Origin: Caenorhabditis elegans | Lineage: Eukaryota > Nematoda > Chromadorea > Rhabditida > Rhabditidae | DNA length: 64,000 nucleotides | Assembly: GCF_000002985.6 (NCBI RefSeq) | Contig: NC_003284.9 | Location: 5,518,001-5,582,000, forward strand | Direction: 5' to 3' | Shown here: piece by piece, positions 7,342-18,100 of the stretch | Position numbering within the stretch: the stretch's first letter is position 1 | Layout: each line of letters starts with the position of its first letter | Notes under the pieces: model-generated | The model's database searches: none | Told to the model about the DNA's origin: nothing | What the model saw: the letters and a program-made list of their open reading frames with translations, nothing else | Made by a program: the position numbers and the translations under genes

Positions 7342-9183
7342 TTAGACTATACCACCGGCTGGGTTTTCCAGCCACGGATACATAGTTGGGCATGGCAAGC
7401 ATGTCAAGAACTGATGCTCCTGGCTGGATAACGACGGCGTACTGTAAAGGCATTTGTTAGGTATGTCGCAGGTCGATAGTGACGGGTTCCGGTTGAAAGA
7501 CAAGGTAATTGGGCAGCCAACTGCTTTGGACTGAAAAAAAAAACATTTAGAATTTTTTTGGTTGAAATATGACATTAAAAACTTTTCCACGTACACTTTT
7601 CATCTCGCTAATTGGCACCGGCCGCTTCATCCAGTCGATCAACTGTTTGATGGTAACAATGTAGACGTCTTTCTGAGCTGACATTCTATTCAAGAACTTC
7701 TGCACCGCCTTCATTCCCTTATTATGTCCACCAAGTTGAAGGAAGTCAGCGTTCAACGATAATACATATGGCGCTCGGTTTGCTGAGTAGCTTCGTTCGA
7801 AATTTCGCGTTATAATCTCTTCCTAAAATAGTTTATGTCTTTAGAAATGAAAGTTACTAAAATTGGCGGGAAAGTTTCTAAAGTTTTCTAATAGTAAACA
7901 TGACTTAAGAAGTTGCTGAAGCCACCGAAGAGGTTGCGGCAACTTGCCGATATCATATTCTCACCAATTCATCAACAGTATTGTTCAAATCAACAGCCGC
8001 TCGGAGCATACTCGATCTTCTGAAGCTGTCGATTTGGCTCATATAGGAACCGTAGAACTGGTTCAACGGAACTGACCAAACTCCTGGGAATGAACTTTTT
8101 GGACACGATGCTTCATTACAATCCCAAGCCACTTGGTAATCCATGGTCTGTGGCCAGAACGGCTCCCCATGAATGCCAGGATTGGCTGACATTGAGTTGT
8201 CCCATAAGAATTCGGCTCCAATCATCATCTGAAAATCATTGTTTTGAAATTGTATTAAGTATTTTGAAACTCACTTCAAATTGATTATCACCTCCTAGTG
8301 CAAGTTGGGGCGACCGAATTCCAACAATTTCCTCTTCAGGAGCTCCACCGAACTTTGCCAAGATTCTTCGTTGCCCATCCATTTCGTTTAACCACCGGTT
8401 TGTGTTTGCATTTTCTAGGGATTCATGTCTAAAATGTTTGTTTAAAAGAAATATCGGGTGAGATGTAATATTTACGAGATGGAGTTGGAGGCGATTTCCA
8501 TATTTTTCTGAACAAGCCAGTTGACAGCATCATAGTTGGTCCACTCGTGGGAAATGAAGAACGTTGCTTTCACATCACATCCATTGGGGTTTCTGGAAAT
8601 TATTGATACCAAAAATTATTTATATTCATAACTAACATTGTATTTTTCAGCGATAAAGTGTTTGGAATCACTTTTTTGAAATTTTTTATTTTAAATTTAA
8701 AGCTTCTTCAAGATCGAACATGTATAACTGTGAAAAAGTATCCAAAGGTTAAAATTTCGAGAAATATTGGTAGTTTACCAAAGCTTTCACCTGAAACTTA
8801 TAAACATCTTAGATATGTTTCACTGTTTTGTTGTGATATTTGGTTTTGATATATGTTTAATTAAAACTTACTTCAAAACGTCATTTTCAAAAAGTTTCTT
8901 ATAATCTGAGAACGTTTTTCCGTTTACAGCATCGTCAAATGTCAAAACAACAAATTGTGGTGTTTCATCTGGGCGGAGACCACCCGGAGCTCGTCTTCCT
9001 GAAATTCGTACATTTTATAGACATTGAAAATGATTTCCCTTGTACCGTTCTCAGTGCAGAAGCAGTTTGGAAGTTTACACTCGGCTTCATTACACGCTTG
9101 AGCTCGTTGTCTATTCGGTACTTGCATAGACGAGAACCTCAATCCGGCTCCATTCACGAACTGCACTTTTGAACTGCGCGCTT
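7342..9183 (-). other. lgx-1: Chitin-deacetylase-like (NodB) domain of LGX-1, likely inactive
   Basis: Exons 9046-9183, 8872-8998, 8476-8592, 8275-8428, 7965-8228, 7595-7822 and 7342-7530 encode the C-terminal domain, about residues 2592-2997. Motif 1 is intact: LTFDDAVN with Asp2660 and Asp2661. Motif 2 reads NSISHES, where active relatives have HSxTH, so the first zinc histidine is Asn2717 and His2721 remains. Motif 3 reads RSPQ (2758-2761) instead of RAPY. The late motif, usually LxFHAxWL, reads LSLNADFL with Asn2883 in the histidine place. The flanking scaffold aligns closely with insect chitin deacetylases ([40 protein letters not shown]). The motif comparison is from remembered family sequences. 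Chitin binding without hydrolysis is my inference. Confidence 0.8.
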
Positions 9184-12100
9184 CTGTAAACATGACTATT
9201 TTTAGAAATATGATGTCATAAACTGTGGCTCACCAATTGGTCTACAATAGCCATCCTCAGCGAAGTGATGATCATCACAAGTGCACATTCCTTCGAAGCA
9301 GGTAGCACCTCCAGTACACTTTTCACGCATACTACAAGTATCTCCAGGCGCGGCAAATGCTGGCGCGGCTGAAAATCAATCACATAAAATTATGAATTTT
9401 TAAAAAATTAGTGATGTCGTTTACATTTCTGTTTGCAAATTCCTCTGATAGCAACATGTTGGGCTGCACAAATACACCGTTTTCTGTCATAATCACAAAT
9501 TGAGCCACCAGCGCATATTTCTCCATTTTTGCAAGTCTCTCCAACTTTTGCTACTTTATGTTTGCACTCTTCTGAAATAATCAAATGAGTTTCGCTGTAA
9601 AGTTTAAATCTCACTGGAAATACATTGCCCGTTTTGTCGGATGTAATTCTCAGGGCAATGGCAGAATCCATTTGTGCACACGCTTTCGCCAAGGCAAATA
9701 TCTATCGGCCGGCAAGCTGATCCAACAGCTGCAACCTTTGGCACAATTTTGGTTGTTCTCCTGTCAGGGAATCCGAAAATATTCGATGGAGGGGTTGGGA
9801 AATCCTTTGGAACAATTCTGGGTTTTTGAGTTGGAGCTGGCGAAGTGGTTGTAGATGAAATAGTAGATGATGTAGTATACACTAAAAGCAAGAAAGCATA
9901 CAATAAAATACAGAAGATGTGTTAATTAAACCTTGTTGCATCTTAGTCTGAATAACGCGATTGGCTTTAACTGGCGGTGTTGTTCCAATAGATTGCTTAT
10001 TAATCTCAATAGCCTGAAAATCAAGGTTTTTAATCTACACAACCGAGCTTCCATCAACCTTAGCCAAGTCAAATCCTTCACACCAGCCATTTGGTGCTAG
10101 TAGGAATCCTGGAGCACACTTGCAGATTTTATCAATGCATTTTGCTCCGTTGATACATTTGTCTTGATAACGATCACAAGCCTGTCCGTATCTCAATGAC
10201 CTTCCACGGATACCTTTGAACGTTTATTTAGAAATTTGCAAAAAATACATAATCCACACGTGTAATACAATTAGTATTGTGGGGATGTGGGAGAAAGATT
10301 TCAAGATGGGAGAGAAAGGCAAAACGGGAAATTGGGTAACATTTCAGAGACACAAAAAAATTGAATCAGATTACAGTTATTTGTTTATCACCAGTGAGAT
10401 TTTTTGAATGAAAACGTATGTGTGTGTGTGTGTAATGATGTAATTGTGATAAGGGAAGAGAAAGATATTCATAGATCCAGAATATTGGATCAATAAATTA
10501 GTTACACTCTGGCACTCTTGTGTATAAGGATGGGGATTGAGAAACTTGATAAATATTTAATATCTGAGCTCAACATTTCTATTACCAGAATACATATTGC
10601 TCGATGTGAACTCAAAAAATAGAAATTTGGTCATGTTACAGAAAACTATACAATTGTAATGTCTACCACGACTTGCAGCAGTTGTACTCTTCTGTGGCGA
10701 AACCACCAGAAGTAATGTAGCAGTAGGACCTAGGCGGGCAATTGGGCTCTAGTCCATTACACAAGATTAGTTTTCCACTGCCATCGGTAGTCGCTTCATT
10801 TCCAGGTGGGCAGTTTCCATTTCCATTTCCAGTTTTGTAGGCTCGCGATCCTCCGCTGCCTCCACTGCCACCAGATCCACCTCCACTGTTCTTGTTCTTC
10901 GGGCGAGGTCGCCTAATTGGTGGTCCGACGATTCGCGGCTTTTGTGTTTGAGATTCTTGTCGTGCTGGAGTGACAAATGAGACTGGTTCCACGTTAGAGA
11001 GTTCAATTTGTTCTCTAGGCATCATTCTTTCAGACAACGTTGCCACCTTATGCTTAGCGTAGGACACGGGAATCGGTCTTTCAATGACGTCGATATCTGA
11101 AATGTTTAGTTAGTGCACACGGGAGGATAACAACAAAACCAACAACTCGTCACTCCAAAAAACGTGGTTGGTTTTTAAGGTAATTCTGAATCTGGGAAAT
11201 AAGAAAACTATCAAACCACACAAGTTGCTAGGTTTAGGTTCAGGATCAGTGATTGGATTTTGAACGTACCTTCAAGCGGCTCACATGTTCCAGAGTTATC
11301 AACAAATCCCGGTTTGCACTTGCATTTTCCAGACACACAAATCTTGTTCTCTCCACAATTAGCATCTATTTCACAGTCAGCTGCAAGAAAATAAATTTAA
11401 TTTGGATATATTCTGATATGGTAATTTAAAAACTCACTAGAATGGATTGGCTTCGGTGTGACCACTGGCGCTGCCTTTACTGGTGTTGTGACTCTAGTGG
11501 TGATTTGTGGTTGAGTCGGTGGTGGCATACATTGAACGTTGAACACAATCTGGCCAGGTGGGCACATGCATATGCCAGTATCATAATCGCAGTTTGATCC
11601 ACCTTCACAAGTTTCGCCATTTTCACAGCTTTCAAGTGGTTTGGCGATAACCCTCATCTTGGGGGTAGTTGACATTGGCAAAGCCACACAGTTACCAGAA
11701 ACAGCAATATAACCTGGCTGGCAACGACAAAGACCGCTTTCACAACTGAATCATTGTATAATTGATATACATAAAGCTTAAACTAGTTCTTACGTGCTTC
11801 CCTTGGTGCAAACCGTGTTGGCGTTGCAGGATGCACCTGGAACAACTTCCAACTTTCTTGGAGTCACACATTGTCCTTGTGAGATTTCTGACTTGTCTTG
11901 TGGGCACTCGCAAAGCTGAAATGATTCACTTAACATCTATATTGCCCTTTTTTTGATTACCTTTCTGAATGAGCAAGCACTTCCTCCGACGCAAGTCTGT
12001 CCTTGTGTGCAGCTCTCTCCTGGTTTTGAGTACAATCTTGCGGTGGTAGCTAAAAATGGAATGTCTTTGTTCGTTTTCTCTCTTGTTTTTGAAAAGGCAT

Positions 12101-15100
12101 ATAAAGCTCGTGAACTAGTGTTTCGTCAATGTGAACAAACAGTTGCTGAGTGCGTGCCGAGTACTACTGTAAGCAGAGTGAGATTTGTAAACTCTATATT
12201 TTGTGATCGAAGTGGACTATGAGAACTCTGAGAACTCTGAGGTGAGAAATAGAACACTGCAAAGCAAAACACTTGCAAACACGCCAAGCAATTATGAATT
12301 TCATTCAATTCGCAAACTTTCAAACCTTCATGTCGAGCTTTTCCACGAGCTTTTCTGCGTGCAGCCTCTTCCGGTGACACACATCCGTCGTGATGGAGAA
12401 CGTAGGTTTCGGGACACTGGCAGGATTTGTTACGACAAACGGTATTTCCCTTGCAGATCAAACCAATCGCCGTGCACTCATCGTCAGTCTGTATAGCTGT
12501 GGTGGTTAGAGGAACATGCGTTGGAATTTCGATAAAAGCGGGCTGTCGCCGAGTGCTTAGCAAATCGGCTATGGTAAACGAGAACACACTGGTTGTTGGT
12601 GGTGGTGCGGTTGTGGTGGTCGTGGTACCTTGAGTTGTGGTAGTCGACGGCAAAGTGGTTTGTCTTGAGGTGGTTGTGAACTTTTCACAACGCCCGCTAT
12701 TGCTAGGCTGCTGACCTGCTGGACAGAGACAGAACCCTTCAATGCAGTTACTCCCACCCACACACACATCAATAGGTCCTAGAACAAAGGAAAGTTAATG
12801 ATAGAACAGAGAAGAGACACTTCAAACCGCATCTTCCTCCTGGCACAATTTTCTTGCCTTGTGGAGCTAGTGGAGCTTCCGTGATGAATGGCTGAGCTTT
12901 TGTAATGGTCACTTGTGGCACATGAACAGAAATTGGTAGTTGTGGTGGCAATGGAACTTGTGGGATTGGCGTCTGTAATTATTAGAAGTGTGGGTGTTGA
13001 AAATTTAGAAATTAGTATTCTAACTCTAGGTGGCAATGTTGGTTTGGGTCCCGATTGGATGCAAATTCCACGGTTGACAATCATAGACGGATCTGGGCAA
13101 ATGCACCATCCTAAAACGAAAATTTTATAGAACGAATAGGCATAAAAATATAAATCCTACCTTCTCTACAAACTGATCCACCGGTACATTCACGAAGGTT
13201 TGAGCAGGAACCTCCTGGTGGAGATGTTACTGGCTCACTTGCTGAAAAAGAAGATTAAAACGTTAATTGTGAATTTTAGGTTGGTACATGAACAATACCA
13301 AAAACTTCTAAGATCATGCAAAATTATTAGTTCGTAGGATAGCAGTAGGAAAGATAACAGTAGGAAAATTATAACTTACGGTCACATTTCACATCACCAA
13401 ACTTGCACATGCAAACTCCACCAAGACATGTTAAATCTTCACGACATCTAGTAACAGTACTACACTGAAACCCTAATCCAATATGCCAGTCACGAGACAC
13501 ACACTGATCGTTTTCGGGAAGGTCTTCGTAGCTGCACACGCAGTAGTCCTTGTAACAAATGGAGTCGCCTCCGCATTTCCGCGTTTCACTACAACCACTG
13601 CCCGGTGGAACAGAAACTTTCAGATCAACAATTGATTTCAGACAATTTTCAGTACTATTATCACAAACACATACATACTCTTGACATTTGAAGTTTGGCT
13701 GGCACTCTTGATCATTTGCACAGTCAATCGAAGCAAGCTCTCGGCGAACTAAACTTCTCGAGTTTTCTTCATTATCGTTATTTTCGCTCAATGATTCGCT
13801 ATCCTTCTCATCGCTATCCTGGCCTACTTCTTGGCGCAAAATCAGGGATTCGTCCAATTTAATATCAACACAGTTTCCATTATGGTTGTAGGTATTTTCA
13901 GTGCATTCACAATTTGAATCACCACAAACAGACCCATTGATACATACTTCACCATTCTCACAAGATGTTTCCGGTAATGCGATAAATACACAAATACCAA
14001 GGATCAAACGTTTTCCATCGCTACATAAGCATTTTCCGTCTACACATTCACTTCCAGACAGACACATTGAATCTTCGTCGCAGTTTCCGTCAATTGGAGT
14101 AAGATCATAGGAATCTTCGACTATCACACAATTTCCATTCCATAAAACCGTGTTCTCTACACACTGGCAAATCCTGCCAAGACCAAGAATGCTCTGACAA
14201 GTTGAATTGTTCTCACAAACTTCTTCATTCTGACAGTTTTCAAGAGGAAGAGAAGATGTTCTTCTCATTTCGATTTTCTTCCCTTCGCTAAATCGAAATT
14301 CTTTTCCAAGAGGCTGTAGTCCCAAAACTCTCAGATTATCAACCTGTGGAGGACAAATTCCATTTTCTGCTGCTACATCTTGGAGGCATCGGCAAAATTG
14401 ATTTTCACAGACAGAATTACCGAGGCACACCTGGCCAGTGCCACAGTACTCGCCGGGAAAAGCAATTTTATATTTCATAGTACTATTATTCTCTTCCTCT
14501 GCGACAGTTTTTGCACCATATACAATGGGGAAACTTGAGAAGACTTGAGGTAAATTGGAGTTAGGAAGGTTAGTATCGGGTGGAGGAGGTATCATGGTAA
14601 AAGATAGGATTTCAGGCCATTTAGTTGATGTATGAAACAAGCCGTCGTTGCTTATTTCTTGAAGACCTCGAAACTCATTTTTCAAAGTATTCTGTAGCGG
14701 TGTGTTTTGCCCGATATTTTTATCAAATGGGAGAATGCTGAAACTTTTGTATTCCGATGGGCTGTTGAAACACATATTTTCCCCGATTTTGTGTCCATTC
14801 TTGCAGACACAATATCCATTATCACAGTAACTAGACTTTTGGCAATTTCGTGATGTAACACAATCCTTTCCAATTGACTCGAATGTGTTCTCACATTTAG
14901 TTCCTTTCGTTGCCATTCCAGACGGGCATTCGCAGACACTACTCATCAAACTGCAGTAACTGTTGTAACTACAGACAGTCTTGAGAGAAGTACAATCTTC
15001 ACCAGGATGTGCCATCTTCGTGTCTTTACAATTTGGACCAGTGCACGTGCAAATTCCGAATACACATTCCGACTCATCAAAACATTGATTGGAAGTCACA

Positions 15101-18100
15101 CATGGTTCTCCAACTGCAATCGCAGGTTCACATATTCCAGACGTGGCGCGGAATCCTGCCATACAGTTACACGAGTTTGAGAAGCAGAATGAAAATGATG
15201 GGCATTCCGAGTTGTGTGTACATTGGTGCCCTGCTAGAATTGATGTGGACGGCCTGTGAACAACTGGAGGTTCAATTTCCGTTGGAATCGAGTTCTTGAA
15301 CTCCATTTCCATTTTCTCAAGCTCATCAATTTTTCTTTGTACATAAAAGTTATCCAAAGTTGTTGTGATGGTGAACATGGTCGTAGTTGTTGAAGGAGCT
15401 GACGTCGTAGCAATTGGTTTGATTTTATTGAAAACTGAGATAACGGAGTTTTTCTTCACACATTTTTTATTAACATCCGCCACTTCATCGTTTGGACATC
15501 TACATATCCCGTCTTTGGCACAGTATGATCCTCCTCCGCAAGGTTCTCCGCTGGCACAAGATTTGCCGGGAATCACCATCAGTGCCAAATGAATTGGGAC
15601 ACATTTCTGTCCGTCACTGACGAGTCTACGTTTACATTTACACACCCCGTACTGGCATATTGACTCTCCAACACAGTCATAACCGTTCGATGGATCGCAT
15701 GTCAAACCTGGAAGCACATGGTGAATGGCCGATCTGCACGTTGAATCAATGATGGTTTCTCCTTTTTTGCAGCGACACACACCTTCTGAACATTTTGTGC
15801 GGAACGAACACTCCGAAGATGTCGTGCATTGACTACCAGGAGTTGCTTTTCCAGGATGGGAAGAAAATGACATTTTTTCCTTTTCACAAACTTCTCCGTT
15901 TAATTTGAACCCAGGCAAACATAAACACATTCCATTAACACATTTTCCATTCACTGGGCAGACATCATCAGATTTACAATCGGTTTCTTCCAGAGCATCA
16001 TCGATTTCATTTTTTGTGGAGGACGTTTCTTGAGTTGTGGGTAAAACACATTTGTCATTATCTTGTATCCAGTCGTCATCACACAGACAGAAGCCATCCT
16101 GGCAATTTGATCCTCCCAGACAAAAATCTTGTAGGCTACACGGTATTCCTGGGTTTTTGTTTTCTCCAACTTTGTTATTGATCACTTGCGTCACACTTGT
16201 TGCCACTGCGGCCTCTCCACTAACACATCTGCCAAGAACAGCGACAGTCTTCGATACACACATGCACATCCCAAACCGACAAGCGGCCCCGTTCACGCAT
16301 TGCTGTCCTCTACGACAAGTTGATCCGATTGACACCGCTGTTTGCACGCATCGCTGGTTGTCCAGTGTACGCGAGGGATCACACCGGCATTTGCCAAGAT
16401 AGCAGCTACTGCCACCGGAACACATCTCGCCGTTTGAACAATGACCGCCAGGAAACTGTTTGCATTTTCCAGTGAGCTCGACAGCTCCGTCGACACACTG
16501 GCAGAGCGCGTCTTTGCACTTTGATCCACCGGCACATCTATCTTTGGAGGAACACTGGTTGTTGATATTTTTAAATGCGCCATAAAATTGAATTGGCTGG
16601 CAGTTTCCTTTCTGAAATAATATACCTAATTATTTCAAGTTACATATAATATAATAAACTCACAATATTAAATTCTTCAGATTCGCATCGGCACTTTTCA
16701 TTCTCACATATGAAATGAATGGGACACAAAGCTTGGCTTGAGCAGGTTGAGCTTCTAGTCATGGAATTATAACTTTTTGGTACACATATTCCATTTTTCT
16801 CACGAAAATCAGGTGCACACTGGCATATGTCATGAAAACAAATGGAATTTCTACTTTTACATATATCCGGATTCTGTTTACACCCCTCCGTTTGTCGCTT
16901 TGAACGAATTTCAGATTGAAGCGAGTGAAGTGAACAGTCGACGTTATCAGGGCAGATACAGATATTGTTAACACAAGTACGAGGGTAAAAGCATGCTTTA
17001 GAGCACTCGGTATGCTCAGGAAAAATTACGTCACAGGATTGGGTAGACAAGTTATGGAAGTAACGATCAGGACAAATACATAGGTTTTGGAAGCACACAC
17101 TTTGATTGGAGCACGGATTAGACGAGGAGAATCCACAAGGTTGGTTAGGGAATGAGGTACCTGTTTGTGAGAAATGGGTAATGTTAGATTATAGGATGAG
17201 ATTGAAAAATGAATAAGAAGTAACCTGAGACACAAGTCTGATCAACCGCTCTCTGTCCCTCCGGGCACACACAAATCCGATCGATACAATGGGTGCCGCT
17301 ATGGGCAGCGTGGCATTGCAAGTCACTACGACAACCAACTTGTCCCGGATAGATAACTAGAAGGAGAAGAAACCAGAAAATAGATGATGAAGAAGTCCCA
17401 AATACAAACCTTTTTCGCATCTTCCTTCGATATTCACATGAGTTGACAAGCATTGGCATGATGGTGGATTGGTGTTTCCATTGCAGTAGGCTCCGATCAT
17501 ACAATCAGTGTTCAAAGAGCAGCGGACACCAACTCCAGCTTGCTTACTACCGCCAATCTTCATTTGGTTAATTTTAATGGAGTTCTTTGGCATTTGTGGA
17601 GGTGTAGTGTAAATTTGCTTTGGAATAAACTGAGTTGTAGCCGGCGTGGTAGCGTAGGTTGGCATCGGTGGGCGAGTTGTTTGGAAGAAAATTGGTTGTA
17701 CCGGAGTTTGAATTGGAGGCTGAAAATTTGTTATATAGGGAAATACAAAGAAAACACTGAGCACCTGAGTAATTTGGACTGGTGGAAGCTGTGGAGGCCT
17801 TGTTTGTGGTGGCAAAGTTTGAATTGGAACTTGAACTGGTGGCAGAGTTGGTGGTGGGGTCATTACTTGCACTGTAATTTTTTAGGTTGAAATGTTGGAA
17901 AATGATTAAAAGTCATTTTTTATTATGCTAAACTGACTAAACATGGCAATTCAGATTTTATGAAAGCTGAGTTTGTGCCACTTGTTCAAACATAGAACCT
18001 GACCAATATTCTTTGAAAAGTTTTAAAGTGATTTAAAGAAAGCCATTTTTTCACCATATAAATGCGTTTCAATATTTTAAATATCAGGTTAAAATATTTA

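Follow-up and report, generated by a model that had tools for sequence, protein, structure and literature searches.

We propose that the CE4/NodB domain of Caenorhabditis elegans LGX-1 is probably dead as a catalyst, or nearly so, and serves in the pharyngeal cuticle by binding chitin. The gene lies on the minus strand of the window (the whole stretch of 64,000 nucleotides that was analysed), with its stop codon at 7342. Heustis et al. 2012 (PMC3396651) gave two such genes in C. elegans, both on X, and took 23 residues out of one of them, C54G7.3, as a false exon. The first 22 of these residues can be read from the minus strand at 8704-8639, which identifies the gene as lgx-1/C54G7.3; the 23rd would sit at the predicted splice.

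The predicted span of the domain, 7342-9183, was confirmed and is divided into 7 exons. All six introns have GT..AG ends and an AG acceptor is found at 9183, giving a spliced C-terminal model of 404 residues. This model scored 35.7 bits with PF01522 (NodB homology domain), compared to a curated cut-off of 23.1. Its best solved relatives are the silkworm proteins BmCDA1 (E 1.2e-61, 36% identity over 334 aligned residues) and BmCDA8 (E 3.3e-49, 34% over 331). LGX-1 aligns with the insect-type chitin deacetylase fold over its full length, including the loop insertion and the C-terminal loops, the alignment covering residues 4-355 of 358 with BmCDA1 and 3-355 with BmCDA8.

Table 1. Exons of the LGX-1 deacetylase domain and the upstream EB-module exon, in window coordinates.
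Feature	Position	Strand	Remarks
lgx-1 exon directly upstream of the NodB barrel	9046..9183	-	GT donor, AG acceptor, open frame
NodB exon, motif 1 TFDD (8931-8942)	8872..8998	-	Base Asp codon 8936-8934 and metal Asp codon 8933-8931, both kept
NodB exon, NSIS	8476..8592	-	Asn codon 8486-8484 replaces the first zinc His (BmCDA1 His261)
NodB exon, second zinc His and motif 3 RSPQ	8275..8428	-	His 8427-8425, Arg 8316-8314, Gln 8307-8305 for Tyr/Phe
NodB exon, loop insertion and motif 4	7965..8228	-	Probable Asp 7991-7989; alternative register Arg 8003-8001
NodB exon, motif 5 LSLNADFL	7595..7822	-	Asn codon 7753-7751 replaces the general-acid His
Last exon, with the stop codon and the C-terminal loops of the insect-type deacetylase fold	7342..7530	-	
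Giant exon upstream in lgx-1, EB modules	13380..16611	-	Boundaries inferred from AG and GT signals

The domain was aligned with 17 bacterial relatives, the two insect proteins and a second worm protein (21 sequences in total); the bacterial rows are related to each other and hence are not independent. The counts exclude rows L016-L018, which coincide in position with L011-L013, and L019-L020, whose matches were partial and weak; for L025, which has one stop within its match, the open piece alone was used. The search patterns of L011-L015 included the first motif-1 Asp and neither the motif-2 nor the motif-5 His. The alignment was numbered by BmCDA1 and BmCDA8, and the residues named in the structure paper (PMC6463723) land on the right letters. 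Relatives of the animal type of chitin deacetylase exist in bacteria (L011-L013, L021-L032) and are uncommon across the sampled phyla: at E up to 1e-25 and counting the query's own genome, at least 2 of 395, 10 of 387 and 2 of 82 bacterial genomes gave a match. No viral relative was found among 44 pattern-matching stretches.

Motif 1 (TFDD) had been predicted to be intact, and LGX-1 indeed has Asp at both BmCDA1 Asp205 and Asp206, the catalytic base and a metal ligand, which are Asp in 18/19 and 17/19 of the non-worm sequences, respectively. In the HSxxH motif, LGX-1 reads NSISH: the first zinc histidine (His261) is replaced by Asn and the second (His265) is kept, so that the Asp-His-His metal triad becomes Asp-Asn-His. 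An active Asp-Asn-His triad may occur in PdaC, a case on which our argument does not rely. The motif-3 Arg that tethers the base (Arg306) is present in LGX-1, and the motif-5 histidine, the general acid, is replaced by Asn. All 19 of the 19 non-worm relatives (2 insect, 17 bacterial) have His261, His265, Arg306, Pro308, an Asp at motif 4 and a His at motif 5. Both asparagines were part of the original prediction, as Asn2717 and Asn2883; their spacing of 166 equals that of residues 124 and 290 in the 404-residue model, the absolute numbering being unchecked, and both recurred in 6/6 MAFFT settings. One bacterial sequence, L022, has Gly in place of the catalytic-base Asp and keeps both zinc histidines and the acid His; it is perhaps a pseudo-enzyme with a loss opposite to that of LGX-1.

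The motif-4 position was sensitive to the register. In the alignment of 21 sequences, the Asp of LGX-1 indicated in Table 1 aligned with the BmCDA1 Asp in 5/6 settings and with the Asp of the bacterial L011 in 6/6, whereas an alignment of four sequences placed an Arg there instead. A change of the motif-4 Asp to Arg, as in BA0330, was considered on the basis of these four sequences and dropped, as the 17 bacterial relatives favour the Asp four residues on; the alignment points to a motif-4 Asp that is probably kept. The change of RAPY to RSPQ, which the original prediction listed among the catalytic losses, was borne out in its letters and discarded as a loss: the relatives vary at position 309 (Y in 7, F in 10, E in 1 and C in 1 of 19), and RSPQ is therefore not diagnostic. 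The active BmCDA8 itself has Phe at the BmCDA1 Tyr309 position, where LGX-1 has Gln. The statement that the domain lacks most other catalytic residues was thus too strong, the base, the metal Asp, the second zinc His and the Arg being kept, as is, probably, the motif-4 Asp.

Fourteen columns are invariant in the 19 relatives, and LGX-1 departs at three of them (11/14 kept), two of which are the histidine positions. The losses of LGX-1 are not significantly enriched at catalytic columns (Fisher p = 0.51, five catalytic versus nine other columns). BmCDA1 and BmCDA8 agree at 128 columns; LGX-1 could be aligned at 127 of these and retains 77. Apart from the two histidines, the scaffold is thus well conserved. 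The cysteine pair that flanks motif 4 in BmCDA1 and BmCDA8 (C391 and C397 of BmCDA1) is missing from LGX-1 and from its worm paralogue; seven other cysteine columns are common to the four proteins.

We then looked at the paralogue. A genome search with the LGX-1 query gave eight matches, six at lgx-1 and two at a second C. elegans locus (near 7,508 kb on C6, the contig on which the window spans 5518001-5582000). With BmCDA1, a query whose motifs are intact, 8/8 genome matches at E up to 10 fell at these two loci, each of the 7 first-look candidates being scored, and no third CE4 relative was found in the C. elegans genome with this query, exons being read separately and the best candidates scored. 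A Pfam family search and a stretch of bacterial deacetylase gave no genome match, lgx-1 itself included; since both miss even lgx-1, the insect-type query alone is informative. The second locus was named F48E3.8 by elimination, because PMC3396651 gives two such genes in C. elegans. F48E3.8 is presumably the CHTS-1 of PMC9629831, which cites PMC3396651 for that protein.

The motifs of F48E3.8 read SFDD, NSITR and RAPE, with Asp at motif 5. The first zinc His is replaced by Asn and the second by Arg, and motif 4 has Lys in the 21-sequence alignment and Thr or Arg by other alignments, Asp appearing in none of three. F48E3.8 departs at 5 of the 14 invariant columns (9/14 kept), four of them catalytic (Fisher p = 0.023), and keeps 71 of the 125 aligned columns in which the two silkworm proteins are identical. 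It resembles LGX-1 in 37% identity, in the Asn for the first zinc His and in a Gly that has become Asn immediately ahead of motif 2, and differs from it in that the second zinc His and the motif-4 Asp are also lost and motif 5 has Asp rather than Asn. The pseudo-enzyme reading is firmer for F48E3.8 than for LGX-1.

In an unrooted maximum-likelihood tree, the worm pair was split from the other 19 sequences with an ultrafast bootstrap of 99. As the worm proteins group together, the first zinc His was probably lost once, before they split, and the NSI(T/S)X printed for nematodes in 2012 suggests that this loss occurred early in the nematode phylum. We put forward tentatively, at a little less than even chances, the wider view that catalytic chitin deacetylation was lost early in nematodes and the proteins were retained as structural chitin binders.

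The cleft residues were compared with those described for the silkworm proteins. In the cleft of BmCDA1 a single hydrophobic residue, Tyr242, is described as exposed (PMC6463723); both worm proteins have Trp at this position, which would be compatible with a kept chitin contact. Five cleft aromatics are named in BmCDA8 (PMC6463723); LGX-1 is aromatic at one of these positions (Phe238) and F48E3.8 and BmCDA1 at none, and the four non-aromatic positions of LGX-1 would speak against chitin binding.

Upstream of the domain, lgx-1 has an open frame of 1086 codons (13372-16629, minus strand) with 17 EB-module matches (E = 5.8e-90). The signals of a giant exon are an AG at 16612 and a GT at 13379, enclosing one frame of 1077 codons without a stop. 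This exon may lie inside the intron of about 4 kb of the 1876-residue model of 2012. Going by the residue numbers 2717 and 2883, the whole protein would have about 2997 residues, a length in keeping with the inclusion of the giant exon. No chitin-binding domain was listed in the ten lgx-1 frames scanned, which cover part of the gene; a weak one was reported in lgx-1 by Pfam (PMC3396651). A short Cys-rich stretch of lgx-1 at 10666-11109 on the minus strand resembled the lustrin Cys-rich domain weakly, scoring below the cut-off (E 0.001).

Known CE4 proteins offer several points of comparison. With BmCDA1 (5ZNS/5ZNT) and BmCDA8 (5Z34), LGX-1 shares the alignment of the whole domain, the TFDD motif, the second zinc His and the Arg; it is unlike them in its two asparagines, in the absence of the motif-4 Cys pair and in its upstream array of EB modules. 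BmCDA8 is active, and BmCDA1, whose site is intact, is inactive alone and active only with molting fluid or CPAP3-A1, so that an absence of activity can be conditional. BA0330 and BA0331 of Bacillus anthracis have the CE4 fold, but no deacetylase activity could be measured for them; they bind peptidoglycan and so stabilise the cell wall, as proposed here for LGX-1 and chitin. They keep the zinc triad (PMC4505593) and have another CE4 topology (PMC10967932). These two proteins set a precedent for a non-catalytic role of a CE4 domain. ECU11_0510 (2VYO) and BA0150 (4M1B), like LGX-1, have lost metal-site residues within a NodB fold and are described as inactive (PMC5855634, PMC10967932). ECU11_0510 lost the base Asp and the Arg, both kept in LGX-1 (PMC10967932), and BA0150 retains the catalytic His, which LGX-1 has lost (PMC5855634).

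In the CE4 mechanism, the metal holds the acetyl carbonyl, an Asp-Arg pair activates the water and a His-Asp pair protonates the leaving nitrogen (PMC5855634 section 5.1). LGX-1 retains the water-activating half, with an altered metal site and the acid lost, and F48E3.8 is without both metal histidines and the acid pair. With its metal triad altered and the acid gone, the barrel might still hold a chitin chain in its long open cleft and leave the N-acetyl group uncleaved. The EB-module array, with any upstream chitin-binding domain, could tie this grip on chitin into the matrix, where LGX-1 may space, cap or cross-link the chitin made by CHS-2. The expression peak of lgx-1 coincides with the interval of chs-2 and putative chitin binders (PMC9629831), and the worm pharyngeal cuticle is treated as a chitin-chitosan matrix in PMC9629831 and PMC10653525, both of which refer to Heustis et al. 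2012 for it. A modular, presumably secreted, chitin-gripping protein expressed when the pharyngeal cuticle is built would fit a matrix organiser, judging from the fold, the gene architecture and precedent. A pseudo-deacetylase, as first suggested, is the best reading, the triad being altered and the acid His gone; half of the machinery is still present, and the remaining base Asp, metal Asp, zinc His and Arg, with the probable motif-4 Asp, speak against it.

This remaining machinery bears on the possibility that LGX-1 is a weak or conditional deacetylase, in which Asn, Asp and His hold the metal, Asp-Arg activates the water and the proton comes from water or a nearby residue, a partner being perhaps required. 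Counting the motif-4 Asp, LGX-1 retains five of the seven canonical metal and catalytic residues, BmCDA1 shows that an accessory protein can be needed, and in deacetylases of the poly-beta-1,6-GlcNAc type a water replaces the motif-4 Asp (PMC5855634 section 5.1). Soluble worm extracts deacetylated glycol chitin in gels, with bands of 104 to 178 kDa, and the pharynx stained with Eosin Y, the evidence given for chitosan there (PMC3396651); our genome search, run exon by exon on the best candidates, gave no other CE4 gene to account for these observations, and they also weigh against a dead enzyme. On the other side, strict conservation of the general-acid His across CE4 is reported in PMC5855634 (section 5.1) and the residue is His in all 19 of our relatives, the relevant parts of PMC3396651 show no knockdown that links the extract activity to one gene or the other, and chitosan was below detection in the reacetylation assay of that paper. 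We consider a weak or conditional activity unlikely.

It is more doubtful still, to the point of being quite improbable, that the pocket of LGX-1 carries out another chemistry. The precedent is SwsB: in this CE4 protein a catalytic residue is mutated, and the enzyme acts as a lactam cyclase instead of a deacetylase (PMC12444981). The base Asp and its Arg, kept in LGX-1, would be available for such a reaction, but the pocket of the paralogue diverged differently (Arg, Lys, Asp) and does not suggest a shared one. We know of no candidate reaction or substrate in chitin for chemistry of the SwsB kind. As to whether the substitutions merely reflect a faulty exon model or misalignment, the motif-4 assignment shifted with the alignment, and one predicted exon of the domain proved wrong in 2012 (PMC3396651). 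Against this, both asparagines lie within exons with clean splice ends and are found in every alignment setting, the paralogue also has Asn at the first position, and NSI(T/S)X was printed for nematodes (PMC3396651). An artefact is scarcely believable, and the claim that these are substitutions and not misalignment stands. The alignment with chitin deacetylases, proposed at the outset as a check and made here with insect and bacterial relatives, favoured a catalytically dead or nearly dead LGX-1.

The substitutions themselves are not new. The nematode NSI(T/S)X and R(S/A)PX and the replaced motif-5 His were already printed by Heustis et al. 2012, where all five motifs were called conserved and activity was inferred (PMC3396651). 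In the same paper, lgx-1 RNAi delayed development in a sensitised strain, and the motif-1 Thr to Ser change was ascribed in the text to C54G7.3. Here, C54G7.3 reads TFDD and the paralogue (L009) SFDD, and the text may have exchanged the two genes. LGX-1 and CHTS-1 were later termed putative chitosan synthases (PMC9629831), PMC9605236 cites a Tufts thesis of 2010 about lgx-1, and PMC10853968 bases the design of a nematicide on the catalytic pocket in a model of one C. elegans chitin deacetylase. In the open-licence literature, no nematode chitin deacetylase described as inactive was found among the titles and starts of abstracts listed. What is already known is that inactive CE4 proteins exist as a kind and that the nematode proteins carry these substitutions, interpreted in the opposite way in 2012. 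What appears to be new, from the residues aligned here, is the absence of catalytic residues from both of the C. elegans members found, proteins that are treated as active in print.

LGX-1, described as making chitosan from chitin, is thus more likely to bind or organise chitin than to modify it. Should both worm proteins be dead enzymes, then either the worm has little chitosan or it has an unknown source of it, and a drug directed against the catalysis of C. elegans chitin deacetylase would find none to block. Whether the worm makes chitosan with LGX-1 and F48E3.8 at all becomes a question that can be tested.
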